Assembly (NCBI RefSeq): GCF_009745975.1
Contig: NZ_WHOL01000126.1
Coordinates: forward strand, 1-64,000
Direction: 5' to 3'
Source of the DNA: Actinokineospora pegani
Lineage (GTDB): Bacteria; Actinomycetota; Actinomycetes; Mycobacteriales; Pseudonocardiaceae
DNA: 64,000 bases
The notes beneath the pieces are model-generated. The model was not told where the DNA came from, ran no database searches, and saw only the letters and a program-made list of their open reading frames with translations. Position 1 is the stretch's first letter. Every line of letters starts with the position of its first letter. Shown here one piece after another: positions 1 through 22,309 of the stretch. The position numbers and the translations under genes are program-made.

Positions 1-1
1 G

Positions 2-1102
<1,101 letters not shown>

Positions 1103-5034: not shown

Positions 5035-5046
5035 GGTGTCGAGGTC

Positions 5047-5075
5047 TTGGCCCAGTCGCGCAGAACACGTAGAGA
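5047..5075 (+). promoter_or_regulatory. Candidate sigma-70-type promoter for the LuxR-like gene
   Basis: TTGGCC (5047-5052), a 17-base spacer and TAGAGA (5070-5075) lie in the 103-base gap after SARP 2 and about 60 bases before the next start. This is motif matching only. Confidence 0.35.
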
Positions 5076-5137
5076 GATCTTGTAGGTGCGCACCGCAGAC
5101 TTCTCACGTGGGCCAATTACCAACCAAGGAGGCAGTG

Positions 5138-8207: not shown

Positions 8208-9002
8208 TCAACGGCGTAGAACCCCGCTGACGAGGACCTCGCCGCCGGACACGCCGTCGACGCTGACGCCGATCAGCGCGCGGCCGAGCCCGGCCGTGCG
8301 GTCCCACGCCAGGCACTCCAGGGTCGGGTAGCTCAACCACGGCCCGCCGCCGGTCAGGGTCAGCGTCAACGAGCGCACGTCGAACCGGACGTCCTGGTCG
8401 TCGTCCGCCTTGGCGACCAGGGTCGCGACCTGGCAGACGGCCTCCAGCAGCAGGCTGACCTGCTGCACGCCCGCGTCGCCCGGCGCCGACGGCCCGACCA
8501 TGGTCGCGGTCAACCGGGAGTCCGGGGTGCGCCGGGGCGGGCCGACCAGCACCCGCCACGGCTCGGCCTTGTCCAGCAGGGTGTGCCCCGCCCGGGAGCC
8601 CGGGTCGAGGATCCAGGGGGCGAACAGCTCGTCGTCGCGGGAGTGCGACACCCAGACCTGCCCGCGGCACACCTCGACGCGGCCCTGGCCCACCGCGAAC
8701 CGCACGCCGCTGGCTCCCCGCCACAGGTCGGGGGCGGCCAGCCGCAGGTCGGTGCGGACGCCGCGCCTGCACGGCTCGGGGAAGGCGACCACCAACGCGG
8801 TCACCGCGCTGGAGTCCCGGTCGCGGTCGACCCGGCCGAGCATGACGGCGGCGGCGCGCACGGCCGCGTCGGCCAGCGCCACGGCGGGGATGTGGTCCTG
8901 GGTGGGGTCGGCGAAGAACGAGTCGCGCTCCACCTCGCCTGCGCTCATCCAGCACTGGTCGTACCGGGTCGACCCGAGGCCGACGACGTCGGTGACCGTC
9001 AT
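8208..9002 (-). CDS. Double-hotdog-like protein, AvrD/AfsA-related (tentative)
   Basis: A 264-residue protein with two repeats of the hotdog pattern. A helix motif D-H-I-P-A-V-A-L-A-D-A-A-V-R (about residues 41-54) is followed by strands; a second helix Q-Q-V-S-L-L-L-E-A-V-C-Q is followed by strands ending G-E-V-L-V-S-G-V-L-R. The first motif resembles the helix of AfsA and AvrD-type proteins, which act on beta-ketoacyl thioesters to make butenolide or syringolide signals; similarity is weak and by eye only. Its ATG overlaps the stop of the upstream cyclase gene (ATGA), so it is translationally coupled to it and ends the operon. It could be a signal-molecule enzyme, a thioester dehydratase-like protein or an accessory cyclase factor. 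A specific function is not claimed. Confidence 0.5.
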   Translation of the reverse strand: MTVTDVVGLGSTRYDQCWMSAGEVERDSFFADPTQDHIPAVALADAAVRAAAVMLGRVDRDRDSSAVTALVVAFPEPCRRGVRTDLRLAAPDLWRGASGVRFAVGQGRVEVCRGQVWVSHSRDDELFAPWILDPGSRAGHTLLDKAEPWRVLVGPPRRTPDSRLTATMVGPSAPGDAGVQQVSLLLEAVCQVATLVAKADDDQDVRFDVRSLTLTLTGGGPWLSYPTLECLAWDRTAGLGRALIGVSVDGVSGGEVLVSGVLRR

Positions 9003-9763
9003 ACCGCCACCTCCTCGACCTCGGTGGCGGCCCGTTCGGCCGGTCGCGGCGCGCGGGCCCGCAGGTCCCACAGCGGCCGCCCCTCGGCCAGCATCCTCCT
9101 GCGCAGCAACACGATGTAGACGACGTCGAGCGCGACCATGGTCGGGATCAGGACGAGGAACAGCGTGCGCGACGGGTAGAGCATGAACCCGGTCAGGCCG
9201 GCGAACAGCGATCCGACGAACTTCGCCACCGCTATGTGCATCGACTGGCCGACCGAGGACCCGCGCGAGCGCAGCATGACGAGGAACCCGGCGCTGAGCG
9301 GGACGTTCACCATCATCCCGATGTACATGCCGTCCAGGTCGTGGAACTCGTTGGCCCCGGCCATGACCAGCAGCGCCGCCCAGACCAGCATCCCGCCCAG
9401 CGCCCAGCGGAAGCCCCTGGGGGACAGCCAGGTGTGGTCGCGGCGGCCGTGGCGGAAGGCTTGGTAGACCAGCACCGAGTTGACAACGGCCCAGGCGCCG
9501 TTCATCACCCGCTGCTCCGGGTACTGCTCCAGCAGGAAGGTCAGGCTGAACTCCCACGCGAAGTTCACCGCGACCAGGAACGCCGGGATGGCCACCCGGC
9601 TGTCGCGCGCGGCCTGGCGGATCGCCAGCACGTAGGTGGTCAGCCAGCCCAGCGCGGTGAGCCCCGCGGTGAGCGCGAACAGCCACTGCGGCACGTCCGC
9701 CCGGCCGATCGAGACCGGCGGCACCTCGGACATCGGGAACAGGAACGGCGGCAACCAGTCCAC
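8999..9763 (-). CDS. Membrane-bound terpene cyclase, Pyr4/PaxB-like
   Basis: A 254-residue polytopic protein with about seven hydrophobic segments and a basic C-terminal tail. The motif N-F-A-W-E-F (Glu about residue 71) matches the catalytic Glu motif of fungal Pyr4/PaxB/AndB-type meroterpenoid cyclases. An Asp in A-L-D-V-V-Y (about 213) matches their second essential acid. Related bacterial enzymes cyclise epoxidised prenyl-indoles (for example in drimentine biosynthesis). The expected role is to protonate or open a terminal epoxide and cyclise the prenyl chain in the membrane. The GTG at 9763 follows GGAAAGG. Neighbouring prenyl synthases and flavin monooxygenases supply the other steps expected for such a pathway. 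The family call is by motif recognition; the substrate is inferred. Confidence 0.72.
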   Translation of the reverse strand: MDWLPPFLFPMSEVPPVSIGRADVPQWLFALTAGLTALGWLTTYVLAIRQAARDSRVAIPAFLVAVNFAWEFSLTFLLEQYPEQRVMNGAWAVVNSVLVYQAFRHGRRDHTWLSPRGFRWALGGMLVWAALLVMAGANEFHDLDGMYIGMMVNVPLSAGFLVMLRSRGSSVGQSMHIAVAKFVGSLFAGLTGFMLYPSRTLFLVLIPTMVALDVVYIVLLRRRMLAEGRPLWDLRARAPRPAERAATEVEEVAV

Positions 9764-9791
9764 GGGGGCACCCTTTCCTAGAGCTGGATTC

Positions 9792-10982
9792 CTAGAGGCT
9801 AGGTACGATGCTGTCGAGGCCGAAGAACGCCCCGCCGTAGAGCTCGTGGCCGACGCGGGTGTTGAGCATGGCGTGCCGGGCGGCGGTGTTGGCGTCGCGC
9901 CAGTACTGCTGCAACGGGCTGGACAGGCCGAACGCGCCCGCGCCGTGCGCCCACATCAACTCGTCGAGCGCGGTGGTGACCAGGTTGACCGCCTGGCCGA
10001 CATCGCCGCGGATGCGGCGCAGCTCGGCGTCCGGCACGCCCACACCCGCCGCCGCGGCCGCGTCGAGCACGTCCGCGGCCCGGCTGACGTGCATCTCCGC
10101 CGCGTCCAGGGTCAGCGCGGTGCCGCCCAGCGCGGAGACGAAGGTCTGCGACATCGGGGCGCTGCTGTAGACCGTCGGCGCGATCCCCTTGGCCGGGGCC
10201 TTGTCGACGACGTGCGCCCGCGCCGCGAGCCCCGCGCCGACGACCACCGACGCGCAGATCACCGCCATCCCCGCCACCGCGGCGGTGCGCAGCAGCGGCG
10301 GCAGCGACAAGTCGGTGGTGTTGGCCCGGCCGAGCTGGTCGGCGAAGGAGATCACCCGGTGCCCGGGGACGAACACGTCCGTCGCCGTGGCGGTGTGGCT
10401 GCCGGTGCCGCGCATCCCGACGGTGTTCCAGGTGTCCTGGACGACCAGGTCCGCGACCGGCGCCAGCACCGACAGCGGCGCTCCGCCGGGGTCCTTGGCC
10501 AGCAGGATCGCCCAGTCGTCGTGCAGGATTCCCGAGGCGTAGGGCCACTTGCCGCTGAGCTGGTAGCCGCCGTCGACCGGGGTCGCCGCGCCGGGGGCGG
10601 CGAAGATCGAGGCCAGCCGCGCGCCCGGGTTGTCGCCGAACACCTCGTCGCGCACACGCCGGGGGAACCGGGTGGCCAGCAGGTTGGAGCCGTTGATGTT
10701 GTTGACCACCCAGGACGTCGACGGGCAGTAGCGGGCCAGCGCCTTGGTGACCTCGCTGAGCGTGCGCACGTCGGTCTCCAGGCCGCCGTAGCGCCGCTCG
10801 GTCCAGAGCGCCGCCAACCGCTCCTCGTCGATCGCGCGCAGCGTGGCGTCGGGGAGCCTGCGCTCCAGGTCGCCCTCGGCCACCCCGGCGGCGAGCGTGT
10901 CGCCGACGGAGTGGACCCGCTCGACCACACCGGCCCAGCGCTCGGTGGCGGCGGGCGCGGTGGGTTCGACCGTGTTCGTCAT
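9792..10982 (-). CDS. Acyl-CoA-dehydrogenase-fold flavin monooxygenase (indole-oxygenase-like)
   Basis: A 396-residue protein of the group D flavin monooxygenase/acyl-CoA dehydrogenase fold. It has an N-terminal helical domain, a central segment with Y-Q-L-S-G-K-W-P-Y-A-S-G and W-N-T-V-G-M-R-G-T-G-S-H (typical of HsaA/HpaB/IifC/XiaF-type oxygenases), and a C-terminal four-helix bundle. Such enzymes use reduced flavin from a separate reductase to hydroxylate aromatic rings; XiaF-type homologues hydroxylate indoles in xiamycin biosynthesis. The ATG at 10982 has AGGAGG upstream. The next gene downstream is the membrane cyclase and the previous one the LEH-like protein, all in one operon. No dedicated flavin reductase is visible in the cluster. 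True acyl-CoA dehydrogenase activity is the less likely alternative. Confidence 0.75.
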   Translation of the reverse strand: MTNTVEPTAPAATERWAGVVERVHSVGDTLAAGVAEGDLERRLPDATLRAIDEERLAALWTERRYGGLETDVRTLSEVTKALARYCPSTSWVVNNINGSNLLATRFPRRVRDEVFGDNPGARLASIFAAPGAATPVDGGYQLSGKWPYASGILHDDWAILLAKDPGGAPLSVLAPVADLVVQDTWNTVGMRGTGSHTATATDVFVPGHRVISFADQLGRANTTDLSLPPLLRTAAVAGMAVICASVVVGAGLAARAHVVDKAPAKGIAPTVYSSAPMSQTFVSALGGTALTLDAAEMHVSRAADVLDAAAAAGVGVPDAELRRIRGDVGQAVNLVTTALDELMWAHGAGAFGLSSPLQQYWRDANTAARHAMLNTRVGHELYGGAFFGLDSIVPSL

Positions 10983-11008
10983 GGACTGCCTCCTGTGTCT
11001 GGTGCGCG

Positions 11009-11395
11009 TCAGTCCCGCTGGGCGGAGATCAGGTTCGTGATGTCGAAGTAGTCCCGCCAGGCCGCGATCCGGCCGTCGCGCACCTCGAAGGCGGCCATCA
11101 CCTTGAGGTTGCGGGCGATCGGCGTCCCGTCGACGCGCAGCATGTCCTCGACGCGCTCGACCAGGACGGTGCCGCCCGCGTGGGCGATGTGGCGGAACTC
11201 GACGTCGAGCTGGGCGAAGTCCGGCGGCATCAGCTCCAGCACCGCCGCCTTGCCCCGGCACACCGGCGACCCGGGGTTCTCCCAGACGACGTCGTCGGTG
11301 AGGAACTCCTCGACCGCGGCCCGCACGTCGCCCGGCGTCGGGCCCATCCTGGTCAGGAACTCGCGGACCAGCTTCTCGTTGTCGCTCTCGGACAT
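11009..11395 (-). CDS. SnoaL / limonene-epoxide-hydrolase-like protein
   Basis: A 128-residue NTF2-like protein. The fold signature includes N-E-K-L-V-R-E-F-L and a C-terminal V-R-D-G-R-I-A-A-W-R-D-Y-F-D that carries the Asp equivalent to Asp132 of limonene-1,2-epoxide hydrolase. The other catalytic positions differ: the Tyr-x-Asn water site reads W-E-N, and the Arg-x-Asp pair reads R-V-E followed by D. It may open an epoxide by an altered mechanism or act as a SnoaL-type cyclase. Its ATG lies 2 bases after the stop of the upstream monooxygenase, so the two are probably translated together. In an epoxide-driven terpene pathway an epoxide-acting partner makes sense, but the role is inferred. 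Confidence 0.7.
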   Translation of the reverse strand: MSESDNEKLVREFLTRMGPTPGDVRAAVEEFLTDDVVWENPGSPVCRGKAAVLELMPPDFAQLDVEFRHIAHAGGTVLVERVEDMLRVDGTPIARNLKVMAAFEVRDGRIAAWRDYFDITNLISAQRD

Positions 11396-11397
11396 GG

Positions 11398-13143
11398 TCA
11401 GCTCCCGGTGCTCTGGTGGGCGAGGACGCGGCGCAGCACGTCGGTCAGCCGGTCGGGGCCGTCGGCGCCGCTGCGCCAGGCCACGTGGTTGTCGGGGCGG
11501 ACGAGCACGGCCCCGCCGTCGTCGACGCCGCGCACCCTGGCCCAGCGGCCGGTGGCGACGGGCGCGACGGCGATGGGGACGCCGAGGGCGTCGGCGGCCT
11601 GCTTGGCCGCGACCGCCCAGGCGCCGTCCGACGTGCCGGTGATGAGCGCGAACCCGCCGTGCGCGCCGACCAGGTCGTGCGAGGACACCTGCTCGCCGGG
11701 GTCGAGCCAGGCGTGCGGCAGCCGGTGGCCGGGGATGGTCACCGGGTGGTGCTCGGCGCCCATCGGGTCCAGCGGCGGCGGCGGGGTGCCGTCCGGGACG
11801 AAGGCGCCCTCGGGGTAGGCGATGCCGATCTCGATGTCGTGCGCCTGGTACTCCACCCGCTGGGTGCGGAACACCTCGGCGGCGCGGACCCGGCGGGTCT
11901 CGCCCATCGGCGTCTCGGAGAACAGCGCCTCGAAGTTGGCCTTGGTCGCCTCCGGCGGCTGCCCGGGGAACAAGCCGAGCCCGGCGTGCGCCACGGCGTG
12001 GTTGCGGAAGGCGTACATCGCCCAGGGGACGTTGCGCTCGGCGACGGCCCTGCGCTCGGGCTCGTAGGTGTCGAGCAGCCCCTCCCCCGCGTGCCCGCCG
12101 ACCACCGCGGCCAGCTTCCAGGCGAGGTTGTGCGCGTCCTGCACGGCGGAGTTGAGGCCCAGGCCGGTGGCGGGCGGGTGCCGGTGCGCGGCGTCGCCCG
12201 CGAGGAACACCCGGCCGACGCGGAAGGTGTCGGCGATGACCGCCTCGGGGATGTACTGGCTGACCTTGTGCACGGTGACGTCGAGGTCGGGCAGCTTGAG
12301 CAGCTCGCGGACGGTGGCGGTGACCGACGCGTCGTCGGTCTCCGGCGTGACGCCCACGGGCAGGTGGAAGTGCAGCGCCCACTCCTGGGAAGCCAGGCCC
12401 CAGTCCGGACCCATCGCGACCATGCCGTAGCGGGAGATGCGCCCGCCGTCGGGGCTGACGAAGTTGGTGATGAGCACCTTGTCGCCGGGCCAGTGCGCGG
12501 ACAGGTCGGCGCTGAAGTGCACGGAGATGACGTTGAACGCGCCGCCGTCGCCGACCATGGACACGCCCAGCCGCGTGCCGACGCTGCGGCCGCCGTCGGC
12601 GGCGACGAGGTACTGCGCGCGCACGGTGGTCGACTCGCCGGTGACCCGGTCGGTGACCAGGGCGGTGACGCCGCTGTCGTCCTGGGTGAACCCCTCCATC
12701 ACGTGGTTGAAGCGCAGGCTGCCGGGCGCGCGCTCGGTGGCGTGGCGCAGCAGCAGCGGCTCCAGCCGGTGCTGGGGCAGGTTGGTCGACGGGCCGGGGC
12801 TGTCCTCGGCGTAGGGGGCGGCCGTGCTGCCGCCGCCGAAGGAGTCCATGCGGTGCAGGTCGCGGGCGTCGAGCGGGCCGTCACCGGCCAGCGACGTGCG
12901 CCAGACGACCTCGCCGATGTTCTCCAGCGGCGCGCTGACGGCGTAGACGTCCTCGGCCAGGCCGTGCTGGCGGAAGACCTCCATCGTGCGCTGGTTCAGG
13001 TAGTGCGCCCTGGGCAGCGCGGACGTGGTCGCGCGCCGCTCCACGAGCAGGTGCCCCACGCCCAGGTCGGACAGGAAGATCGACGCGGCCAGGCCGCACC
13101 CGCCTCCGCCGACCACCAGGACCGGGACTGACACTTCGGACAT
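11398..13143 (-). CDS. FAD-dependent aromatic-ring monooxygenase (PheA/TfdB family)
   Basis: A 581-residue class A flavoprotein monooxygenase. The N-terminal Rossmann motif V-P-V-L-V-V-G-G-G-G-C-G-L and acidic E-R-R bind ADP. The D-G motif reads V-A-A-D-G-G-R-S, and the third FAD motif F-L-A-G-D-A-A-H-R-H-P-P (about residues 290-305) is intact. About 150 extra C-terminal residues form the thioredoxin-like domain of the phenol hydroxylase branch. It should add one oxygen to an aromatic or polyunsaturated substrate using NAD(P)H and O2. GAGGAG lies upstream of the ATG at 13143. It sits between the ferredoxin reductase and the LEH-like gene, so it is a likely tailoring enzyme. Confidence 0.82.
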   Translation of the reverse strand: MSEVSVPVLVVGGGGCGLAASIFLSDLGVGHLLVERRATTSALPRAHYLNQRTMEVFRQHGLAEDVYAVSAPLENIGEVVWRTSLAGDGPLDARDLHRMDSFGGGSTAAPYAEDSPGPSTNLPQHRLEPLLLRHATERAPGSLRFNHVMEGFTQDDSGVTALVTDRVTGESTTVRAQYLVAADGGRSVGTRLGVSMVGDGGAFNVISVHFSADLSAHWPGDKVLITNFVSPDGGRISRYGMVAMGPDWGLASQEWALHFHLPVGVTPETDDASVTATVRELLKLPDLDVTVHKVSQYIPEAVIADTFRVGRVFLAGDAAHRHPPATGLGLNSAVQDAHNLAWKLAAVVGGHAGEGLLDTYEPERRAVAERNVPWAMYAFRNHAVAHAGLGLFPGQPPEATKANFEALFSETPMGETRRVRAAEVFRTQRVEYQAHDIEIGIAYPEGAFVPDGTPPPPLDPMGAEHHPVTIPGHRLPHAWLDPGEQVSSHDLVGAHGGFALITGTSDGAWAVAAKQAADALGVPIAVAPVATGRWARVRGVDDGGAVLVRPDNHVAWRSGADGPDRLTDVLRRVLAHQSTGS

Positions 13144-13172
13144 CGTGCGGCTCCTCGGATGGGGACCCCGGG

Positions 13173-14339
13173 TCAGCGGTGGTCCGCTGTGATGAGTTGG
13201 CGGGCGGTGCGCACGCCCTTGGCGCTGTTCCAGCCGACGACGCCGACGACGGCCCCGTCGCGCTCGGCCACGGCGACGAACTTGCGGTCGCGCGGGTCGC
13301 CGTCGACCACGCGCAGCGGCCCGCCGAGCAGGTCGCCGTGCACCTGGACGCGCACGCCGTGCTGGTCGGTCCAGAAGTAGGGGACGGGGGTGTAGGCCCG
13401 GTCCGCGCCGAGGATGTTCCCGGCGACGGCCAGCGCCTGCTCGGTGGCGTTGGTGCGGTTCTCCATGCGCGCCGACCGGTCCCAGCCCTCGTGGTGCCAG
13501 CGGGCGACGTCGCCCACGGCCCACACGTTCTCGGCGGCCCGGCACCGGGAGTCGCACACGACCCCGTCGTCGATGCCCAGCCCGCTGTCGGCGAGCCAGC
13601 CGGTGGCCGGGGTGGAGCCGATGGCCACCACGACCACGTCGGCGTCCAGGGTCCCCGCGGAGGTGACCACGCCGGTCACCCGTCCGTCGGCGACCACCGG
13701 GGCGTGGGCCTTGGTGCCGGTGAGCACCTCGACGCCCTGGTCCCGGTGCAGGTCGGCGAGGAACCCGCCGACCTCGGCGCCGACCTGGGCGACCATCGGC
13801 AGCGGGGCCGGGTCGACCATGGTGGTGCGCAGGCCCAGCGCGCGGGCGGTGGCGGCGATCTCGCAGCCGAGGACGCCCGCGCCGAGCACGACGACCTCGC
13901 GGGCGGCGAGCAGGTCGGCGCGCAGCGCGGCGGTGTCCTCGACGGTGCGCAGGGTGTGCACGCCCGCCAGGCCCGCGAACGCGGGCAGGACCCTGGGGAC
14001 CAGGCCGGTGGCGATCACCAGGTGGCCGTAGCCCAGGCGCCGCCCGTCCTCGAGCTCGACCTCGGCGGCCGCGGTGTCCACACCGGACGCCCGGGCGCCG
14101 AGCACGACGTCGGCGTCCAGCGCCGCGATGACCTCGGGCGGGCGCAGCGCGGCCTGCTCGGCCGTCCACTGCCCCGTGAGGACCTTCTTCGACAGCGGCG
14201 GCCGGTCGTACGGCGCGTGCGGCTCTTCGCCGACCAGACACAGCGAGCCGGTGAAGCCTTTGCGGCGCAACGCCTCCGCCGTGGCCAGACCGGCGGCCGA
14301 CGCGCCGACCACCAGCACGTCGGTCACGGCCCCGCTCAC
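13173..14339 (-). CDS. Ferredoxin reductase, FAD/NAD(P)-dependent
   Basis: A 388-residue pyridine-nucleotide-disulphide-type reductase of the putidaredoxin reductase kind. The FAD site is V-L-V-V-G-A-S-A-A-G-L-A, the NAD(P) site V-V-V-L-G-A-G-V-L-G-C-E, and the second FAD motif V-W-A-V-G-D-V-A-R. The C-terminal reductase domain is complete. The GTG at 14339 overlaps the ferredoxin stop (GTGA), so it is translationally coupled to its electron acceptor. With the adjacent ferredoxin and P450 it forms a self-contained electron chain from NAD(P)H to the P450; it might also serve other oxygenases of the cluster. Confidence 0.9.
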   Translation of the reverse strand: MSGAVTDVLVVGASAAGLATAEALRRKGFTGSLCLVGEEPHAPYDRPPLSKKVLTGQWTAEQAALRPPEVIAALDADVVLGARASGVDTAAAEVELEDGRRLGYGHLVIATGLVPRVLPAFAGLAGVHTLRTVEDTAALRADLLAAREVVVLGAGVLGCEIAATARALGLRTTMVDPAPLPMVAQVGAEVGGFLADLHRDQGVEVLTGTKAHAPVVADGRVTGVVTSAGTLDADVVVVAIGSTPATGWLADSGLGIDDGVVCDSRCRAAENVWAVGDVARWHHEGWDRSARMENRTNATEQALAVAGNILGADRAYTPVPYFWTDQHGVRVQVHGDLLGGPLRVVDGDPRDRKFVAVAERDGAVVGVVGWNSAKGVRTARQLITADHR

Positions 14340-14545
14340 GTCGACGTCGCCTTCTCCAGCAGCAGGATCGCCGCCGCCGGGCACAACTGCGCGGCCTCGC
14401 GCGTGTTCTCGTGCTCGTGCTCGGGCGGGTCAGCGTCGAGCAGGATCACCACGCCGTCGTCGTCGCGCTGGTCGAACACCTCCGGCGCGGCCACGACGCA
14501 GTGCCCGGCGCCGACGCACTTGAACTCCTCGATCTCGACCTTCAT
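14336..14545 (-). CDS. [3Fe-4S]-type ferredoxin
   Basis: A 69-residue ferredoxin. Cys10 and Cys16 in C-V-G-A-G-H-C and a third Cys in L-C-P near residue 55, with Ala at the position of the missing fourth ligand, define the single-cluster 3Fe-4S (or labile 4Fe) P450-partner family. It shuttles electrons from the overlapping reductase gene product to the P450 encoded just upstream. GAGGAGG precedes the ATG. It is the usual length for the family. Confidence 0.93.
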   Translation of the reverse strand: MKVEIEEFKCVGAGHCVVAAPEVFDQRDDDGVVILLDADPPEHEHENTREAAQLCPAAAILLLEKATST

Positions 14546-14560
14546 CGTCGCCTCCTCGGG

Positions 14561-15769
14561 TTACCAGGTGACCGGCAGGGCGTTGACGCCGAAGACCAGC
14601 GCCGTGGTGCGGTAGTCGACCTCGTCGTCGGGGACGGCGAGCGTGAGCGTGGGGAACCGCTGGAACAGCGCCGGGAGCGCGACCCGCAGCTCCATCCTGG
14701 CCAGCTGCTGGCCCAGGCACTGGTGCGCGCCGTGGCCGAAGGTGACGTGCGGGCGCTGCGGGCGGCGCACGTCGAGCGTGTCGGGATCGCCCTCGACGTC
14801 GTCGCGCTCGTCGCGGTTGGCGGCGAGGATGGAGAAGACCACCCGCTCGCCCTTGCGGATCTCCTGGTCGCGGACGGCGAAGTCCTCGGCGGCCTCGCGC
14901 GGCATGATCGTCGCCGGGCACACGTAGCGCAGCAGCTCCTCGATCGCGCGGTCCACCGCCTCGGGCTCGTCGCGGACGACGGCGAGCTGCTCGGGGTTCT
15001 GCAGCAGCAGCGCGGCGCTGGCCGAGAGCATGCTGGCGGTGGTCTCGTGGCCCGCGATCAGCAGCATGTTGCCGATGCCGGTCAGCTCGTCGTCGTCGAG
15101 CTCGTGGCCGAAGTCGCGCACGACCTGCCCGAGCATGTTCTCCCCCGGGCTGCGCCGGTGCGCGGCGACCAGGCCGGACATGTACTCGTCCATGTCCTTG
15201 AGGTTCTGGACCTGCACCTCGAGCGTGGTGTTGACGTCCAGGCCGACCTTGGCCCGGCGCTGGAAGTCGGCGCGGTCGGCGTAGGGCACGCCGAGCAGCT
15301 CGCAGATGACCTGCGTCGGGATGGGCGTGCTGAACAGCCGCACCAGGTCGGCCCCCTGGCCAGCCGCCTCGACCTCGTCGAGGCGGTCGGCGACGACCTG
15401 CTCGATCATCGGGCGCAGCGCGCGGATCCGCTTGATGGTGAAGAACCCGGTCAGCATCCGGCGCAGCCTGCTGTGGCCCTCGCCGTTGTAGTTGAGCAGG
15501 TTGCCCGGCTGGTTGAGCATGGTGCGCGGCTTGTCCGGGTCGAACTCGAAGCCCATTTGCAGCCGCGAGTCGCCCAGGGCGTCCTTGACGTCCTCGTAGC
15601 GGGTGATGGCGACCGCGTCGAACTCGCCGAGCAGCGGGCTGGGCACCTTGACCCTGGGCAGCTCCGCCTCCTTCTGCAGCGCGCGCAGCTCGGCGGCGGG
15701 CTGGTAGGGGCACTGGGGCTCGCGCGCGGCGATGGGCAGCGACTTCGGTTCGGTGTGTGCCTCGGTCAT
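14561..15769 (-). CDS. Cytochrome P450
   Basis: A 402-residue soluble bacterial P450. Visible landmarks are the I-helix A-G-H-E-T-T-A-S (acid/alcohol pair), E-E-L-L-R as the E-x-x-R motif, and the heme loop F-G-H-G-A-H-Q-C-L-G-Q with the Cys thiolate. It should perform a hydroxylation or C-C/C-O coupling on the cluster product. The dedicated ferredoxin and reductase genes follow directly (15-base gap, then GTGA overlap). The exporter gene precedes it by 31 bases, with GAGAGGA as ribosome site. The CYP family cannot be assigned by eye. Confidence 0.94.
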   Translation of the reverse strand: MTEAHTEPKSLPIAAREPQCPYQPAAELRALQKEAELPRVKVPSPLLGEFDAVAITRYEDVKDALGDSRLQMGFEFDPDKPRTMLNQPGNLLNYNGEGHSRLRRMLTGFFTIKRIRALRPMIEQVVADRLDEVEAAGQGADLVRLFSTPIPTQVICELLGVPYADRADFQRRAKVGLDVNTTLEVQVQNLKDMDEYMSGLVAAHRRSPGENMLGQVVRDFGHELDDDELTGIGNMLLIAGHETTASMLSASAALLLQNPEQLAVVRDEPEAVDRAIEELLRYVCPATIMPREAAEDFAVRDQEIRKGERVVFSILAANRDERDDVEGDPDTLDVRRPQRPHVTFGHGAHQCLGQQLARMELRVALPALFQRFPTLTLAVPDDEVDYRTTALVFGVNALPVTW

Positions 15770-15800
15770 CTCAGCGATTCCTCTCGGGGGACAAGGGTTT

Positions 15801-17237
15801 TCAGCGTTCCGCCTGCACGGTCGGGATGAGGGCGCTGACGGCCAGGGCGGCCACCGACCCGACGACGCCGATGACGCCGACCAGGACGAAGGCGCCCCGC
15901 AGCGGGACGTGCGCGCCGCCCGCCGCCGTGCTGCCCTGCGCGGCGAACACCGCGCCGACCACGGCGCCCGCCGCGGCGGAGCCGATCGAGCGCATCAGGG
16001 TGTTGAACCCGTTGGCCGCGCCCGTCTCCGACGGCGCGACGGCGCGCATGATCAGCGCGGGCAGCGACCCATAGGCGAAGCCGACGCCCGCGTTGGTCAC
16101 CACGGTCCCGGCGACCAGCGCGGCCACCGAGTCCAGGGCGGCCAGGCACACCAGGTAGCCTAGTCCCATTAGGACAGTGCCGAGCAGCAGCGCGGCTTTG
16201 GGCCCGCGCGCCGCCGCGATCCGCGCGGCGGCCGCCGACGCGGCCATCATCGCCGCCCCGGCAGGCGCCATCAGCAGGCCCGCGGCCAGCATCGCGAAGC
16301 CCAGCCCGTGGCCGGTGGCCTCGGGCAGTTGCAACAGTTGCGGCACCATCAGGATCTGCGCGTACATGGCGAACCCGACGACCACCGACGCGGTGTTGGT
16401 CAGCAGCACCGGTGTCCGCGTGGCCGTGGCCAGGTCGATCAGCGGGGTGGCGACGCGCCGCTCCCAGCCTGCCCACGCAGCCAGGGCGAGCGCCGCGCCG
16501 ACCAGGAGTCCGACGGTTCCCGGGGCGGTCCAGCCCCACTCGCCGCCGCGCGAGACCACCAGCAGCAGCGCGGTGAGCCCCGCGGACAGGGTCACCGCGC
16601 CGACCAGGTCGAACCGGCCCTCGGCCGGACCGGGGGCGGCGGTCACCAGCCGCGCGACGAGCACGGCGATGACCGCGGTGAGCACCCCGACACCGGCGAA
16701 GAGCAGGTGCCAGTCGGCCACCTCGGCGATGGCGGCGGCGAACGGCAGCCCGAAGGCCGCGCCGACGCCGAGCGCCGAGGAGGTCACCGCGATGGCCGAG
16801 CCCACCCGGCGCGGGGAGATCACCTCGCGCAGCAGGCTGATGCCCAGCGGGACCACGCCCATGCCGAGCCCCTGCAACGCGCGCCCGGCGACCATCGGGG
16901 CCAGCGACCAGGACACCGCGCACAGCAGCGACCCCAGTGTCACCAACCCCAGCACGACCAGCAGCACCAGCCGCTTGCCGTGCAGGTCGCCCAGCCTGCC
17001 GATGACCGGGCTGGTCACCGCGCCGCTGAGCAGGGCCGCGGTGACCACCCAGGAGGTGGCCGCCGGACCGGCGCCCAGCAGCGCGGGCAGGTCGCCGAGC
17101 AGCGGGACCACCAGCGTCTGCGACATCGCCGCGATCCCGGCGGCCACCGCCACCACGACCACGACGGCGCGCTCGCCATCGGTGCCGTCATGGTCGGTGA
17201 CCTGCTGATCGGTGATCCTGACTGCCCGCTCGCCCAT
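15801..17237 (-). CDS. MFS drug/metabolite exporter, DHA2-like
   Basis: A 478-residue polytopic protein with at least twelve, probably fourteen, hydrophobic segments. The loop 2-3 motif G-R-L-G-D-L-H-G-K-R and a motif-C-like G-P-like bend support the DHA1/DHA2 proton-antiport exporters. It is the first gene of the minus-strand biosynthetic operon and divergent from a TetR gene, the usual arrangement for product export under repressor control. The ATG at 17237 follows AGGTGGGG. It probably exports the cluster product and may confer self-resistance. Confidence 0.88.
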   Translation of the reverse strand: MGERAVRITDQQVTDHDGTDGERAVVVVVAVAAGIAAMSQTLVVPLLGDLPALLGAGPAATSWVVTAALLSGAVTSPVIGRLGDLHGKRLVLLVVLGLVTLGSLLCAVSWSLAPMVAGRALQGLGMGVVPLGISLLREVISPRRVGSAIAVTSSALGVGAAFGLPFAAAIAEVADWHLLFAGVGVLTAVIAVLVARLVTAAPGPAEGRFDLVGAVTLSAGLTALLLVVSRGGEWGWTAPGTVGLLVGAALALAAWAGWERRVATPLIDLATATRTPVLLTNTASVVVGFAMYAQILMVPQLLQLPEATGHGLGFAMLAAGLLMAPAGAAMMAASAAAARIAAARGPKAALLLGTVLMGLGYLVCLAALDSVAALVAGTVVTNAGVGFAYGSLPALIMRAVAPSETGAANGFNTLMRSIGSAAAGAVVGAVFAAQGSTAAGGAHVPLRGAFVLVGVIGVVGSVAALAVSALIPTVQAER

Positions 17238-17299
17238 GGGGCCCCACCTCGGCGTGTCGGTGCCGCTGCTCGCATTGTGGGACCCACCGTAGCATTAAT

Positions 17300-17314
17300 T
17301 GGCACGCCGTGCCA
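17300..17314. promoter_or_regulatory. Perfect 15-bp palindrome, probable TetR operator
   Basis: TGGCACG-C-CGTGCCA is an exact inverted repeat in an AT-rich patch of the 155-base divergent gap, 62 bases before the exporter start and 78 bases before the TetR start. TTGACT (17317-17322) just beside it could be a -35 for the plus strand. TetR proteins typically bind such sites in their own divergent promoter; binding here is inferred. Confidence 0.65.
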
Positions 17315-17392
17315 TTTTGACTTTGATAGACATTTTGTCCCGATACGGCGCGGCGGCCCCCACCCGCCCCGCGGCCGGGGGAGGATGGGCGC

Positions 17393-18037
17393 GTGATCAT
17401 GAAGCAGACCGACGACCAGGACAAGACCGGGGAGGAGCGGGCCGAGCGCGGCCGGGGCAGGCCGCCGATGACCGAGCGGCGCAAGGACATCATCCGGTTG
17501 CAGATCGCGACGGCGGCGCTGGAGCTGTTCATGGCGCAAGGGGTCGCGGCGACCTCGGCCGAGCAGATCGCCGGGCAGCTGGGGATCTCCACCAGGACGC
17601 TGTGGCGGTACTCGCCGTCGAAGGAAGACTGCGTGCTGCCGCTGCTGTCGCACGGGATCGACGTGGTGGTGGAGAAGTTGCGCGCCTGGCCGCACGGCGA
17701 ACCCTTGGTCGAGCAGCTGCTGCACGAGACCGACCTCATCGAGCGCACCCCCGAATCGACGTTGGACCTGGTGCGGCTCACCAGGACCGAGCCGTCGCTG
17801 CGCGCGGTGTGGTTGCAGAGCCACCTGAACTCCGAGGCGGCCTTCGCGGGCGTGATCGCCGAGCGCACCGGCCTGGCGACCGAGGCGCTGGAGACCAAGG
17901 TGCAGGCGGGAATGCTGAACGTGGCGCTGCGACTGGCGGTGGAACACCACGCCTGGCACGGCGGCTCCGCCCCCGGCGGTCTCACCGACGCCACCCGGAC
18001 CGCGTTGCGCACCGCACTCGGCGGCCTGTCGATGTGA
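17393..18037 (+). CDS. TetR-family repressor
   Basis: A 214-residue regulator. A basic leader (E-R-G-R-G-R-P-P) is followed by a TetR HTH: A-A-L-E-L-F-M-A-Q-G-V, T-S-A-E-Q-I-A-G-Q-L-G-I-S-T-R-T-L-W-R-Y. Its helical ligand-binding domain is of the AcrR type with a C-terminal helix pair for dimerisation. It is divergent from the exporter and upstream of the prenyl synthase arm, so it may control both. The GTG at 17393 is used because GGGGGAGG lies 8 bases upstream; the in-frame ATG at 17399 is further away. The ligand is probably a pathway intermediate or product (inference). Confidence 0.9.
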   Translation: MIMKQTDDQDKTGEERAERGRGRPPMTERRKDIIRLQIATAALELFMAQGVAATSAEQIAGQLGISTRTLWRYSPSKEDCVLPLLSHGIDVVVEKLRAWPHGEPLVEQLLHETDLIERTPESTLDLVRLTRTEPSLRAVWLQSHLNSEAAFAGVIAERTGLATEALETKVQAGMLNVALRLAVEHHAWHGGSAPGGLTDATRTALRTALGGLSM

Positions 18038-18166
18038 CGCCCGCGCGCGGGGCCCCCTTACGCGCGCGCAAAATCTTGTGGGAAAAGAGATCCGTTGCGC
18101 GAACGGCTCGGACGGACCGAAGAGACCAGACCGGTTTCCCCTTCGGGCCCCACCCGAGACGACCTC

Positions 18167-18196
18167 ACGACAACCGCTTCCCCGCCTACCTACAGT
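18167..18196 (+). promoter_or_regulatory. Candidate promoter of a leaderless prenyl synthase transcript
   Basis: ACGACA (18167-18172), an 18-base spacer and TACAGT (18191-18196) end 7 bases before the ATG at 18204. No ribosome-binding sequence precedes that ATG, so a leaderless transcript for the right arm of the cluster is likely. Confidence 0.4.
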
Positions 18197-18203
18197 CGAT
18201 CGC

Positions 18204-19193
18204 ATGACGGAGATCGATGTGCCCCAGGTGGCCGATCCCGAGATCGCCGCCCTGATCCGGTCCGAGGTGGAGACCCGGTGGCCCGCCGATGTCTCCGGAC
18301 TCGACGAACTCGTCCGCTACGGCCTGGTGCCGTTCGGCAAGATGATGGGCCCCTGGCTGCTGGTGCGCTCCGCGCTGGCGGTCGGTGGGACGGTCGGGCC
18401 GGTGCTGCCCGCCGCGGTCGCGGTGGAGTGCGTCCAAGTGGGCGCGATGATGCACGACGACATCGTCGACGGCGACGGGCAGCGACGCGGCAAGGTCGCC
18501 GCGCACGCCGCCTTCGGCGCGTCGTCGGCGATCGTCGGCGGCGACGGGCTGTACTTCCACGGGTTCGCCGCGCTGGCCGACTGCCAGGCCGCGGGCGCGC
18601 CGGTGGAGGGGGTCGGCCGCGCGCTGACCATCCTGTCCCAGGCCGGTCTGCGCATCGGCGACGCGGCCATCCAGGAGATCAGGATGGGCGGCGGGATCTG
18701 CTCGACCGAGAGCTACCTGTCCATGATCCGCGACAAGAGCGGCGGGCTGCTGTGGATGGCCTGCGGCGTCGGCGCCGCGCTGAGCGGGGCCACCGAGCTG
18801 GAGCTGGCGGCGCTGCGCGACTACAGCGACCTGCTGGGCATCGCCTACCAGATCCGCGACGACCTGATGGCCTTCGACGGCACCCGCGCGGGCAAGCCGT
18901 CCACATCGGACGCCCGCAACGGCAGGCCGACGCTGCCGGTGCTGCTGGCCCACCGCCGGGCCCCCCGCGAGCACCAGCGGGCCATCGAGGTGCTGCTCGG
19001 CGACGCCGAGCTCACCGTCGACGAGCGCCACCGCCGGATAACGGCGCTGGTCGACGAGCACCAGGGCGTCGCGGCCGCGCGCGCGATGTCGCACCGCTAC
19101 GCCGATGAGGCGGGGAGGGCGCTGGCGGACCTGCCGCCCTCGCCGCACCGCAGCGCGCTCGCCGCGCTGACGGTCCCCGGCCACCTGGTCTGA
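18204..19193 (+). CDS. Polyprenyl synthetase-family prenyltransferase 1
   Basis: A 329-residue all-helical isoprenyl synthase homologue. The first Asp-rich motif is M-M-H-D-D-I-V-D-G-D (about residues 91-99); the second is Q-I-R-D-D-L-M-A-F-D-G-T. Both can bind Mg-diphosphate. Positions -4 and -5 before the first motif are Ala and Gly, so no aromatic plug limits chain length. The usual K-P-S and basic residues for the second diphosphate are partly kept. It could make a C20 or longer prenyl diphosphate or, as PaxC- and XiaM-type relatives do, transfer a prenyl group to indole. It begins the plus-strand arm; the next gene starts 43 bases later. Which of the two synthases makes the chain and which transfers it is open. 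Confidence 0.82.
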   Translation: MTEIDVPQVADPEIAALIRSEVETRWPADVSGLDELVRYGLVPFGKMMGPWLLVRSALAVGGTVGPVLPAAVAVECVQVGAMMHDDIVDGDGQRRGKVAAHAAFGASSAIVGGDGLYFHGFAALADCQAAGAPVEGVGRALTILSQAGLRIGDAAIQEIRMGGGICSTESYLSMIRDKSGGLLWMACGVGAALSGATELELAALRDYSDLLGIAYQIRDDLMAFDGTRAGKPSTSDARNGRPTLPVLLAHRRAPREHQRAIEVLLGDAELTVDERHRRITALVDEHQGVAAARAMSHRYADEAGRALADLPPSPHRSALAALTVPGHLV

Positions 19194-19236
19194 GGACCTT
19201 CCCGGTCTGCCCGCAGAGAACCCCGGAGGTGGCCCG

Positions 19237-19830
19237 TTGTCCGCGCCGACCTACGCAAGCTACTTGCACCTGGACGAACTGCTGTCGTTGCAGCGCCCGT
19301 TCAGCCCGCCGGACGACGTGGACCTGCACGACGCCGAGCGGCTGTTCATCGTCGTGCACCAGGCCTCGGAGGTGCTGCTCGGCCAGGCCCTCACCGACCT
19401 GCGGCGCATCGCCGGGCCCGGCGGCGCCGAGTCCGCCGGGCACCGGGCGGACCGGGCGACGTGGGTCGTGCACACGCTCGTGGGAAACGTCGGCCTGCTG
19501 CGCGAGGCGTTGCGGCCACGGGACTTCCTCGGCTTCCGCGACCTGTTCGGCAGCGCGAGCGGGTTGCAGTCCACCCAGTTCCAGGAGCTGTTCCGGCTGA
19601 CCGACCGGTTCGCCGCGGCGGGCCTACCCGACCGGGCGCGCGCCGAGCGGCTGCGGGCGGCCGTCGTCGCCTGGCGCGAGGCGCACCTGGAGCTGGTCCG
19701 GCACACGATCGGCGACCACCCCGGCTCCGGCGACACCTCCGGGATCGACTTCCTGCGGCGTCGGCTGACCGCCTCGGCCCGCGGCAAGGCGGTCGCCGCG
19801 CCGGGGTGCCCGGTCGGCGCCAACCACTGA
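19237..19830 (+). CDS. Shortened tryptophan 2,3-dioxygenase-like heme protein
   Basis: A 197-residue protein recognisable as TDO family from T-Y-A-S-Y-L-H-L-D-E-L-L near the N-terminus, L-F-I-V-V-H-Q (His41, equivalent to the active-site His55 of Xanthomonas TDO), F-R-D-x-x-G-x-A-S-G-L-Q-S-T-Q-F-Q-E, and a C-terminal E-A-H-x-E-L-V-R-H-T-I-G with G-S-G-D-T-S-G-I-D-F-L-R. His150 would be the heme ligand. It is about 80 residues shorter than normal TDOs, which use tryptophan for kynurenine synthesis. Relatives such as MarE do other indole oxidations. The TTG start follows GGAGG by 7 bases. In this cluster it hints at a tryptophan or indole-derived substrate. Confidence 0.75.
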   Translation: MSAPTYASYLHLDELLSLQRPFSPPDDVDLHDAERLFIVVHQASEVLLGQALTDLRRIAGPGGAESAGHRADRATWVVHTLVGNVGLLREALRPRDFLGFRDLFGSASGLQSTQFQELFRLTDRFAAAGLPDRARAERLRAAVVAWREAHLELVRHTIGDHPGSGDTSGIDFLRRRLTASARGKAVAAPGCPVGANH

Positions 19831-19849
19831 ACCCCTGGAAGGACAAGCG

Positions 19850-21205
19850 ATGCCCGCACAGAGCCTGGGCCACGTGGTCGTCCTCGGTGGCGGCGTGGCC
19901 GGTCTGCTGGCCGCCCACGTCCTGGCCCGGCACGCCGAGCGCGTGACGGTCGTCGAGCGCGACCACCCCGGCGCGGGCCCGGCCCCGCGCCCCGGCGTCC
20001 CCCAGTCCCGGCACACCCACGTCCTGCTGACCAGTGGCATCGACGCCTTGGACGCCCTGCTGCCCGGCCTGCCCGACGAGGTGCGGGCGGCGGGCGGGCC
20101 GCGCCTGGACATCCCCGGCGACGTCGGGGTGTGGCAGGGCGGGCAGTGGGTGAACCGGCGCAACCCCTCGCGCCCGGTCCTCACCGCCTCCCGGCCGCTG
20201 TTCGAGCACGTGCTGCGCGAGCGCGTCCTGTCCGGGCCCGGCATCGAGGTGCTGGCCTCGACCGAGGTCGTCGGCCTGACCGGCGACCCCGGCGCGGTCA
20301 CCGGGGTCGTCCTGCGCGAGCGGGGCGAGCAGGCGCGGCCCACGGGGTTGGCCGCCGACTTGGTCGTCGACGCCACCGGCCGCTCCAGCAGGCTCCCCAG
20401 GTGGTGGGCGGAACTGGGCGGCGGAGCGGTCGAGGAGGACCTGCTCGAGACCGGCCGCGCCTACGCGACCTGCGTGTTCGAGTCCGACGACGCCCCGCCG
20501 CAGGACATCGGCGGCTTCTACCTGGTGCCCGAGGCGGGCCAGCCGCTCGGCGCGATCGTGCTGCCCGCCGAGGGCGACCGCTGGATGGTCACCCTGTCCG
20601 GGCCGCGCGGGCAGGCCCCGCCCGCCGACGTGGCCGGGTTCGTCGACTTCGCCCGCCTGCTGCCGCACGACGCCCCGCACAAGTGGCTGAGCACCGCCCG
20701 CGCGGTCGGCCGCCCGTCCGGGTACCGGCACACGGCCAACCGGCGCCGCCGCTGGGACCGGGCGCTGCGCCGCACGACGGGCCTGCTCGTCGTCGGCGAC
20801 GCGCTCAGCGCCTTCAACCCCGTGTACGGGCAGGGGCTCTCGGTCTCCGCGCTCAACGCCGTCGCCCTGCGCGACGCCCTCGACCGCTCCGGCGAGGTGT
20901 CCCGGTGGCAGCGCGCGGTGCTGCGCTCGGGGGCGGGGGCCTGGGTGGTGGCGACCGGGGCCGACTCGCCGATGCCCGGAGCCGAGGGCGGCGCGCTGCG
21001 CTCCGGCCCGGTCGAGGGCGTGCTCAACCGCTACCTGGCCCGGGTCCGCGACCGCGTGCCCGGCGACCCGGTGGTGTGCGCGGCGTTCCGCGACGTGCTG
21101 TTCCTGCTCGCCCCGCCGACCAGCTTGCTGACGACTCCGGGGGTGCTCCGCCGGGCGCTGCTCTCCCCGGTGGTCCCCACCCCGCCCGACCTGCCCACCC
21201 GGTGA
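19850..21205 (+). CDS. FAD-dependent monooxygenase, possible prenyl-chain epoxidase
   Basis: A 451-residue class A flavoprotein. It has the dinucleotide site H-V-V-V-L-G-G-G-V-A-G-L with acidic V-V-E-R-D, a central D-A-T-G-R motif (V-V-D-A-T-G-R-S-S), and the FAD ribityl motif V-V-G-D-A-L-S-A-F-N-P-V-Y-G-Q-G (about residues 317-332). The sheet domain that contacts substrate is of the squalene epoxidase/geranylgeranyl reductase-like group rather than the phenol hydroxylase group. In indole-terpenoid pathways a PaxM- or XiaO-like flavoenzyme epoxidises the terminal prenyl alkene before membrane cyclisation, and this gene is the best candidate here. GGAAGG precedes the ATG. It ends 25 bases before a short coupled ORF. 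Confidence 0.8.
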   Translation: MPAQSLGHVVVLGGGVAGLLAAHVLARHAERVTVVERDHPGAGPAPRPGVPQSRHTHVLLTSGIDALDALLPGLPDEVRAAGGPRLDIPGDVGVWQGGQWVNRRNPSRPVLTASRPLFEHVLRERVLSGPGIEVLASTEVVGLTGDPGAVTGVVLRERGEQARPTGLAADLVVDATGRSSRLPRWWAELGGGAVEEDLLETGRAYATCVFESDDAPPQDIGGFYLVPEAGQPLGAIVLPAEGDRWMVTLSGPRGQAPPADVAGFVDFARLLPHDAPHKWLSTARAVGRPSGYRHTANRRRRWDRALRRTTGLLVVGDALSAFNPVYGQGLSVSALNAVALRDALDRSGEVSRWQRAVLRSGAGAWVVATGADSPMPGAEGGALRSGPVEGVLNRYLARVRDRVPGDPVVCAAFRDVLFLLAPPTSLLTTPGVLRRALLSPVVPTPPDLPTR

Positions 21206-21230
21206 CCGCCCGACAGCGAAGGTGACACCC

Positions 21231-21287
21231 ATGCGCGACAACCGCGGCCTGACAGTCCACATCGGAGCAGAGGAGGTGGCGGCATGA
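21231..21287 (+). CDS. 18-codon ORF translationally coupled to prenyl synthase 2 (tentative)
   Basis: ATG at 21231 after GAAGG, encoding MRDNRGLTVHIGAEEVAA. Its TGA overlaps the ATG of the next gene (ATGA), and the AGGAGG of that gene lies inside the small ORF. It is too short for homology; it may be a coupling leader, a remnant, or spurious. Confidence 0.4.
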   Translation: MRDNRGLTVHIGAEEVAA

Positions 21288-22309
21288 CCACGACACCGGT
21301 CCGCAGGCTGCCAGGGGCGATCGAGGCCGGGCTGCGGCTGGTCGACCCCGCGCTGCGCGCCGCCGTGCGCGAGCACCTGTGCGGGGAGGCGGCCACGATC
21401 GCCCGCTACCACCAGGGCTGGATCGAGGCCGACGGCACGCCCACCAGCGCCTGGGGCGGCAAGCTGCTGCGCCCCGCGCTGGCCCTGCTCGGCGCCCAGG
21501 CCGCGGGCGGGCCCGCCGAGGGCGGCGTCCCGGCCGCGGTGGCGATCGAGTTCGTGCACAACTTCTCACTGCTGCACGACGACATCATGGACGGCGACAC
21601 CGAGCGCCGCGGCCGGGCCACCGCCTGGACCGTCTTCGGCGTCCCGCAGACAATCCTGTCCGGCGACGCCCTGCTCACCGCCGCCGTGTCGGTCCTGCTC
21701 GACTCGGGCGCCCCGGGTGCGGCGCGGGCGGCGACGTCGCTCATGACGGGCACCCAGCGCATGATCACCGGCCAGGCCTCCGACGTCGACTTCGAACGCC
21801 GCGACGACGTCACCCTGGCCGAGTGCGTCCGGATGGCGGGCGACAAGACCGGCGCCCTGCTGGCCTGCGCCTGCTCCCTCGGCGCCGCCCTGGTCGGCGC
21901 CGACCGCGACCTAGTCGACCGCCTGGCCGCCTTCGGCGAGAACGTCGGCCTGGCCTTCCAGTTGGTCGACGACCTCCTGGGCATCTGGGGCGACCCCGAC
22001 CGCACCGGCAAGCAGGTCGGGGCCGACCTCCGGGCCCGCAAGAAGTCCCTCCCCGTCGTCGCCGCCCTCAACGCCCCCGGCTCCACGGCCCTGGCCACCG
22101 CCTACCTCCGCCCCGGCCACCTCGACGAGCAGGCCGTCGCCCACGTCACCGCGCTGATCGAGTCCCTCGGCGGACGGGCCTGGGCCCAGGACGAGGCCGA
22201 GCGCCGCATCGCCGCCGCCCGCGACGCCCTCCTCGGCGCCGACCTCCCCGACGACGTCCGCCAGTCCTTCTTCGACGTCGCCGCCTTCATCACCGGGAGG
22301 GCCTTCTGA
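21284..22309 (+). CDS. Polyprenyl diphosphate synthase 2, probable GGPP synthase
   Basis: A 341-residue trans-isoprenyl diphosphate synthase. The first Asp-rich motif is F-S-L-L-H-D-D-I-M-D-G-D-x-x-R-R; the second is F-Q-L-V-D-D-L-L-G-I-W-G-D. G-G-K-L-L-R-P and G-Q-A-S-D-V-D-F-E are the IPP and helix motifs. A Phe at position -5 with an uninserted D-D-x-x-D resembles type I (archaeal-like) GGPP synthases, so C20 is the best guess, with C15 possible. AGGAGG is 7 bases before the ATG. It closes the plus-strand arm; a hairpin follows the stop. Precursor IPP/DMAPP would come from the MEP pathway that includes ispG at the window edge. Confidence 0.88.
   Translation: MTTTPVRRLPGAIEAGLRLVDPALRAAVREHLCGEAATIARYHQGWIEADGTPTSAWGGKLLRPALALLGAQAAGGPAEGGVPAAVAIEFVHNFSLLHDDIMDGDTERRGRATAWTVFGVPQTILSGDALLTAAVSVLLDSGAPGAARAATSLMTGTQRMITGQASDVDFERRDDVTLAECVRMAGDKTGALLACACSLGAALVGADRDLVDRLAAFGENVGLAFQLVDDLLGIWGDPDRTGKQVGADLRARKKSLPVVAALNAPGSTALATAYLRPGHLDEQAVAHVTALIESLGGRAWAQDEAERRIAAARDALLGADLPDDVRQSFFDVAAFITGRAF

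Follow-up and report, generated by a model that had tools for sequence, protein, structure and literature searches.

The DNA stretch analysed here, a window of 64,000 nucleotides (positions 1-64,000 of Actinokineospora pegani contig NZ_WHOL01000126.1), carries at 8208..22309 a locus which, with a probability of about 0.92, is a xiamycin (xia)-type indolosesquiterpene gene cluster, as judged from gene identities, orthology, neighbourhood and conservation at the sequence level. Clusters of this kind are already known, and the locus is a further case beside 17 others. An earlier note on the same DNA had proposed a pathway to an indole-derived or other aromatic terpenoid built around a Pyr4-like membrane cyclase, a proposal supported by the orthology of one enzyme to XiaF and by the presence of the xia gene set. 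Every gene named in that note is present, with an intact reading frame and a family match (listing of open reading frames (ORFs), Pfam and NCBIfam searches). Its comparison with the xiamycin pathway pointed to the right kind of cluster and went less far than the data allow, since by its match to XiaF and by its cassette order the locus is itself best read as xia-type.

The comparison set consists of 18 clusters: that of the window, 13 loci found as cyclase relatives with one genome per species, and 4 from 397 sampled genomes of the order. Extra stretches (L090-L093) were added for four clusters whose first locus was cut, and two clusters (L004 with L092, L009 with L091) are each split between two contigs and were joined by inference. 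The genes of the two arms of the window cluster are as follows.

8999..9763, minus strand: Pyr4-type membrane terpene cyclase (XiaE/XiaH type) with acids E71 and D213 (PF25129, 1.8e-23)
9792..10982, minus strand: XiaF/XiaI orthologue, a two-component flavin indole hydroxylase / indosespene cyclase of the acyl-CoA dehydrogenase (ACAD) fold (567 bits to 5lvu)
11009..11395, minus strand: XiaG-type limonene-epoxide-hydrolase-like (LEH) protein (Pfam LEH 2.7e-18; 18/18 clusters)
11398..13143, minus strand: XiaH-type FAD monooxygenase (FMO), called XiaK in other nomenclature (FAD_binding_3 9.7e-96, Rng_hyd_C; 18/18 clusters)
13173..14339, minus strand: ferredoxin reductase (Pyr_redox_2 9.1e-53, Reductase_C; 6/18 clusters)
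14336..14545, minus strand: ferredoxin, 69 aa (Fer4_13 2.1e-11; 18/18 clusters)
14561..15769, minus strand: XiaJ/XiaM-type cytochrome P450 (p450 3.7e-30; identity to its counterparts elsewhere in the set 62-77%, 17 clusters)
15801..17237, minus strand: MFS exporter (MFS_1 3.8e-41; homologue in 5/18 clusters)
17393..18037, plus strand: TetR-family regulator, pointing away from the exporter arm (TetR_N 1.6e-9; homologue in 6/18 clusters)
18201..19193, plus strand: aromatic prenyltransferase of the isoprenyl-synthase fold (490 bits to 9v4g; start set by alignment, longest frame from 18078)
19237..19830, plus strand: compact heme protein resembling tryptophan 2,3-dioxygenase (TDO), 197 aa (Trp_dioxygenase 6.9e-24; 18/18 clusters)
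19850..21205, plus strand: flavin epoxidase of prenyl double bonds, Lsd18/MonCI-like (LasC/Lsd18 235 bits, MonCI 231; 18/18 clusters)
21284..22309, plus strand: isoprenyl diphosphate synthase, 341 aa (polyprenyl_synt 3.4e-55; 18/18 clusters)

Orthology to XiaF and cassette order

The ACAD-fold enzyme matches the XiaF structure 5lvu with 567 bits, compared to 160 bits for the next family, and is 68.6% identical to XiaF. Seven XiaF residues are named in the published description, with S121 and F123 positioning the indole (PMC5481743); by our own reading of the alignment (offset 16), W87, S121, F123, Y144 and H371 are kept in the window orthologue and two are conservatively changed (I237V, R266K). 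A tree was built from the 18 cluster sequences and XiaF, 19 in all, together with two ACAD paralogues from the window genome. XiaF is nested in a group with support 97/99 that holds 8 of these 19 cluster-type sequences, and the two paralogues (31-32% identity) fall outside the cluster-type set on very long branches; most inner branches of this tree are weakly supported.

A second line of evidence is gene order. In the same source, the xia cassette xiaFGHIJ sits between the cyclase gene xiaE and the core genes xiaKLM; F encodes an ACAD oxygenase, G an LEH homologue, H a flavoenzyme resembling phenol hydroxylases and J a P450 (PMC5481743). The window shows the same order (cyclase, ACAD, LEH, FMO, ferredoxin, P450) with a ferredoxin reductase added, and this order would make xiaI a ferredoxin gene. 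The core families of xiaKLM (isoprenyl synthase, prenyltransferase, flavin epoxidase) are likewise all present, matched by family and not by letter. The xia clusters described in that source are those of Streptomyces sp. HKI0576 and SCSIO 02999 (xiamycin/oxiamycin), with a putative locus in Amycolatopsis nigrescens (PMC5481743). The window locus shares with them the cyclase, XiaF, LEH, FMO and P450 types in one cassette, as well as genes for prenyl supply, transfer and epoxidation, but differs by its divergent two-arm layout, its MFS/TetR pair, the added ferredoxin reductase, an additional gene at 8208-9002 and the lack of a flavin reductase gene on the contig.

The membrane cyclase and related systems

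The 254-aa cyclase matches PF25129 (Pyr4-TMTC) with 83.9 bits and an E-value of 1.8e-23, for a Pfam cut-off of 27, and is 63-75% identical to the cyclases of the other 17 clusters. The Pyr4-like assignment of the earlier note and its numbering of the two acids were both correct, and the acids are conserved in distant bacterial members. E71 is kept in 18/18 distinct bacterial genes covering the position, in an alignment with members as low as 29-37% identical, and D213 in 18/19 distinct bacterial cyclase genes, the exception (L059) being a decayed fragment; the alignment has 20 rows, of which 19 are distinct, as L058 and L061 are the same gene. For DmtA1, E60 and D214 are given as the conserved acids (PMC6173783), and the E71 and D213 columns appear to correspond to these. 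A sequence search at E<=1 returned no solved relative of the cyclase. The L059 fragment itself is 66% identical to the xia-type cyclase, and its genome (G180), in which there is no TDO match at E<=1e-10, probably holds a decayed xia cluster. Pyr4-like proteins in plasmid records (6 records) are distant, with 25-36% identity to the window cyclase.

Several known systems can be set beside the locus. The dmt (drimentine) system also has a membrane cyclase of the Pyr4-like kind, whose substrate is a farnesylated indole, but it relies on a cyclodipeptide synthase and on a prenyltransferase resembling phytoene synthase, and the group protonated is an alkene (PMC6173783); the window has an epoxidase. 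Neither a cyclodipeptide synthase nor a phytoene-synthase-like prenyltransferase occurs among the window cluster proteins scanned with Pfam and NCBIfam. The zig (zigralone) system also has a bacterial Pyr4-like cyclase, ZigF, working on an indole-derived substrate, but differs by its UbiA-like prenyltransferase, TPP enzyme, P450 epoxidase and C20 chain (PMC13307353). With fungal Pyr4/PaxB the window cyclase shares the Pyr4-TMTC match and two conserved acids, the former by profile and the latter from an alignment of bacterial sequences; its bacterial context and tailoring set are different. The statement that generic cluster finders could miss such a locus is weakened by a 2026 survey of 1107 bacterial Pyr4-like candidates, of which 264 with terpenoid neighbours were kept and in which the XiaH group is among the two largest (PMC13307353).

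Prenyl transfer, epoxidation and chain length

Two isoprenyl synthase homologues had been noted, and both proteins do match polyprenyl_synt (6e-39 and 3.4e-55), but one of them is prenyltransferase-like. The 18201..19193 protein matches the solved "prenyltransferase" 9v4g (and variants) with 490 bits and 69.3% identity, compared to 112 bits for the best chain-length synthase, and was therefore taken as an indole prenyltransferase rather than a chain-length synthase; it is predicted to be an indole-3-glycerol-phosphate farnesyltransferase. No paper on PDB entry 9v4g was found in the open literature. The flavoenzyme previously called squalene-epoxidase-like, which we take to be of the XiaO/XiaL type, is FAD epoxidase-like as described, but finds its best matches in the polyether epoxidases Lsd18/LasC and MonCI, with the Pfam squalene epoxidase model (SE) reaching just 0.024. 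This likeness supports epoxidation of a prenyl chain by the 19850..21205 protein.

By orthology, the 21284..22309 synthase would supply farnesyl diphosphate (FPP). Some observations weigh against a xia-type assignment with a C15 product, and two of them concern this protein. Its top NCBIfam models are a family-2 encapsulin cargo model and the geranylgeranyl diphosphate (GGPP)-type IdsB model, both below cut-off, and its first aspartate-rich motif is without the two-residue insertion typical of bacterial FPP synthases. In addition, the window sequence sits on a long branch of the ACAD tree, with weak support for its place in the family, and XiaF is the one published xia protein to which a direct comparison extends. 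Finally, no flavin reductase gene for the XiaF orthologue was found on the window contig, three Flavin_Reduct genes being located on other contigs of the genome. The flavin reductase XiaP is encoded in the flank of the xia cluster, and E. coli Fre replaces XiaP in vitro (PMC5481743); such a gene in the flank is therefore not a strict requirement of a xia cluster.

The observations on the synthase bear on the suggestion of a C20 product, in which the synthase would make GGPP and the pathway would parallel that of fungal paxilline. Bacterial precedent exists in ZigF, a Pyr4-type cyclase that works on a C20 chain (PMC13307353), and the synthase scores 290 bits against IdsB, a GGPP synthase model with a cut-off of 475. 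The tailoring set (XiaF, XiaG, XiaH, ferredoxin and XiaJ types), with 62-77% identity across clusters for XiaF, XiaG, XiaH and P450 types, is that of the reported C15 (farnesyl) pathway, so that a C20 product is unsupported. Moreover, identity between the synthase and its counterparts in the 17 further clusters is 62-73%, and a switch in chain length in the window cluster is thus not indicated. An indole diterpenoid is accordingly very improbable, and a C15 chain is favoured on the basis of orthology.

Conservation and layout across clusters

The cyclase, ACAD, LEH, FMO, ferredoxin, P450, TDO-like, epoxidase and synthase genes are each present in 18/18 clusters, and the prenyltransferase gene in 17/18, the L008 stretch ending before its expected position. 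Accessory genes are less frequent within the stretches fetched: ferredoxin reductase in 6/18, TetR in 6/18, MFS in 5/18 and the 8208-9002 gene in 3/18. Since both arms occur in all clusters, counting the two joined over two contigs, the arms travel together, in agreement with the expectation that they would be conserved jointly in relatives. Their divergent arrangement is a less general feature: 5/18 clusters are divergent or rearranged like that of the window, and 13/18 are co-directional. The TetR gene of L008 (3317-3774) matches in two pieces and is probably frameshifted or affected by a sequencing error.

Proposed pathway

The published route leads from condensation of isopentenyl and dimethylallyl diphosphates (IPP/DMAPP) and joining to indole-3-glycerol phosphate to 3-farnesylindole, its epoxide and preindosespene, and onward to indosespene, xiamycin, N-hydroxyxiamycin and dimers (PMC10884874, PMC9113183). 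Its steps were assigned to window genes by orthology. The 21284-22309 synthase would convert IPP/DMAPP to FPP, which the 18201-19193 prenyltransferase would join to indole-3-glycerol phosphate to yield 3-farnesylindole. The 19850-21205 flavin epoxidase, together with a putative TDO-like partner, would then form the epoxide, and the 8999-9763 cyclase, with E71/D213 protonating the epoxide, would close the decalin of a preindosespene-type skeleton. Oxidation of a methyl group to a carboxylate would be carried out by the P450 with its ferredoxin and the ferredoxin reductase, the latter being its probable partner. The XiaF orthologue would hydroxylate indole C3 with reduced flavin, followed by carbazole closure, and the XiaH-type FMO, assigned to the XiaH/XiaK type by its position in the cassette, may N-hydroxylate the carbazole and open the route to dimers. 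The MFS protein may serve in export, and the TetR and SARP genes in regulation. In the published scheme, as far as it is covered here, xiaG is the sole gene without a proposed function (PMC5481743).

The assignment of the FMO is also where a non-indole product, such as a phenolic meroterpenoid for which the TDO-like and XiaF-like genes were recruited to another aromatic acceptor, finds its support, the best solved relatives of the enzyme being chlorophenol and hydroxybiphenyl monooxygenases. By position, however, it is the known XiaH/XiaK type, and the indole-positioning residues S121 and F123 of XiaF are kept in the window orthologue; XiaF itself forms indigo from indole in E. coli. No polyketide synthase, UbiA or similar acceptor-forming family was detected among the cluster proteins scanned. 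A non-indole acceptor is therefore the most improbable of the alternatives considered here, and the scheme above retains indole.

A compact TDO-like protein in every cluster

The 197-aa TDO-like protein is above the Pfam cut-off (85.3 vs 34.9 bits) and below that of NCBIfam TIGR03036 (80.7 vs 390.7). Residue roles and the X. campestris numbering of TDO are here presumed, and positions were matched through the alignment. All 18 cluster proteins keep F51, H55, R117, G125, W236, R237 and H240 (TDO numbering), with S/T at 254; in the window protein the predicted proximal heme histidine is H150, the distal histidine H41 and the substrate-pocket arginine R101, each present in 18/18. The position of TDO Y113 is occupied by F in the cluster proteins, as in 34/35 other TDO-like proteins aligned. 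Unlike canonical TDO, the window protein is without much of the middle segment, which between two alignment landmarks spans 14-49 residues in xia-type proteins; among the 35 other TDO-like proteins the same segment has 79-97 residues in 27 and 33-59 in 8.

The TDO-like gene adjoins the epoxidase gene and is fused to it in frame, through a proline/alanine-rich linker, in 6/18 clusters (L005, L006, L009/L091, L011, L013, L014). This fusion may be of single origin; on the epoxidase tree it needs two changes. Compact TDO proteins above 260 bits were found in 5/397 genomes of the order, all five with a xia cluster, and in none of the other 11 Pyr4-positive genomes of this sample, G180 among them. 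In a sample of 392 Streptomyces genomes, three had a match above 300 bits, all of them xia genomes already found.

More distant compact proteins also exist elsewhere. In L106 (about 9007-9570, minus strand) a compact TDO-like gene (153 bits, 41% identical) has no other window gene by similarity in the surrounding 19.0 kb, and in L107/L094 (L107 about 8967-9530, minus strand) another (168 bits, 44% identical, one internal stop) has none in the surrounding 9.7 kb. A 627-aa protein in L060 (7730-9613, minus strand) has a C-terminal compact TDO domain with the heme and distal histidines kept, and its N-terminal part reads as a nonribosomal peptide synthetase (NRPS)-like carrier and thioesterase region. 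In a Streptomyces genome (L108, 8906-9601, plus strand), a 232-aa TDO-like gene adjoins a P450 gene and large genes read from sequence as NRPS-like. The compact shape is thus not exclusive to xia clusters, gap lengths overlapping between the two groups, and the relatives in L106 and L107, away from xia genes, indicate that the compact form can exist without the pathway.

What the protein does in xia clusters can be approached through its position. As its gene adjoins, and is sometimes part of, the epoxidase gene, it is most simply viewed as a partner of the epoxidase. We tentatively propose, at somewhat less than even odds, that it is an obligate part of indolosesquiterpene biosynthesis in bacteria and serves the flavin epoxidase as a partner domain that binds heme and indole. 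It might hold 3-farnesylindole by its indole head, bringing the far chain end to the flavin, or catalyse an unrecognised oxidation of the pathway. An ordinary tryptophan-degrading dioxygenase, or a passenger, appears unlikely. Tryptophan cleavage is conceivable, as all checked TDO pocket positions are kept, and the compact relatives in two Streptomyces genomes (L106 and L107) lie away from xia genes. However, the gene is retained beside the epoxidase in every cluster, the window genome also carries a canonical TDO, and N-formylkynurenine is not needed by any xia step described in the published pathway, as far as it is covered here. A passenger had been our first suspicion, against which this retention and the six fusions argue. 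No role for a TDO-like protein in xia clusters was found in the open literature; the primary cluster papers lie outside this scope and may already report one, and the domain may already be described there as the N-terminal part of the xia epoxidase.

Left flank of the cluster

Leftward, the cluster probably reaches past regulator genes to an ispG gene truncated by the start of the contig. The genes concerned are listed below.

20..1102, plus strand: ispG (GcpE) of the methylerythritol phosphate (MEP) pathway, truncated at its 5' end where the contig begins (PF04551, 477 bits at contig 11-1033)
1127..5761, plus strand: SARP/AAA-like and LuxR-like regulator genes (ORFs; family names read from sequence)
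5768..7867, minus strand: SARP-family regulator with BTAD and AAA_16 domains (Pfam BTAD 2.5e-33)
8208..9002, minus strand: 264-aa protein whose gene shares 4 bases with the cyclase gene (likeness to AfsA/ScbA hotdog proteins very weak)

The ispG gene is a probable precursor-supply gene of the cluster. In 12/17 other clusters ispG lies on the same contig, at most about 15 kb from the nearest cluster gene; in the remaining genomes (G399, G400, G401, G404, G405) none was found at such a distance. The xia cluster of one strain reportedly contains five MEP genes, whereas the window shows one; the contig begins there, so that more are possible.

Over 1,052 bases (window 1-1052), the ispG gene beside the cluster shows 100% identity to three more copies in this draft genome, which differ in their flanks; in one pair of copies the likeness continues for 39 further bases (98.8% over 1,091). 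Copies within a genome (window 1-1052; L117-L120; L132/L146; L137/L149; L131/L145) are 100% (G407), 99.3% (G200) and 96.0% (G318) identical, compared to just 80-82% between the cluster-linked and the other copy in G402, G408 and G409, and 79-88% for cluster-linked copies between genomes (7 compared). Several contigs, including that of the window, terminate inside ispG. This pattern suggests that some lineages have undergone recent homogenisation (gene conversion) or capture, and the exact identity and copy number may be due in part to repeat collapse in assembly.

The genes at 1127..5761 are possible cluster regulators, with an uncertain boundary. SARP homologues come after the cyclase gene in L002 and L010, and homologues of the 5768..7867 regulator adjoin the cluster in L002, L003 and L010. 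The 8208..9002 gene, which lay within the locus as first delimited but was left undescribed, was found in 3/18 clusters (window, Umezawaea, Saccharothrix) within the stretches fetched. Its product gave no match in Pfam and an NCBIfam ScbA match of 0.0044, far below cut-off, and its orthologues in L002 and L010 gave AfsA at E 0.07. An AfsA identity is not supported by these Pfam results, and the protein was left unassigned; it is perhaps a relative of butyrolactone signal enzymes.

Implications

The window locus and the 17 other clusters fall in a small family of antibiotics, some of which are reported to be antiviral or antibacterial, and the compact TDO stands out in it as a conserved protein. 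The natural fusion of TDO-like domain and epoxidase provides a directly testable hypothesis for this protein. If true, the TDO fold would have been repurposed from cleaving tryptophan to partnering a flavoenzyme.

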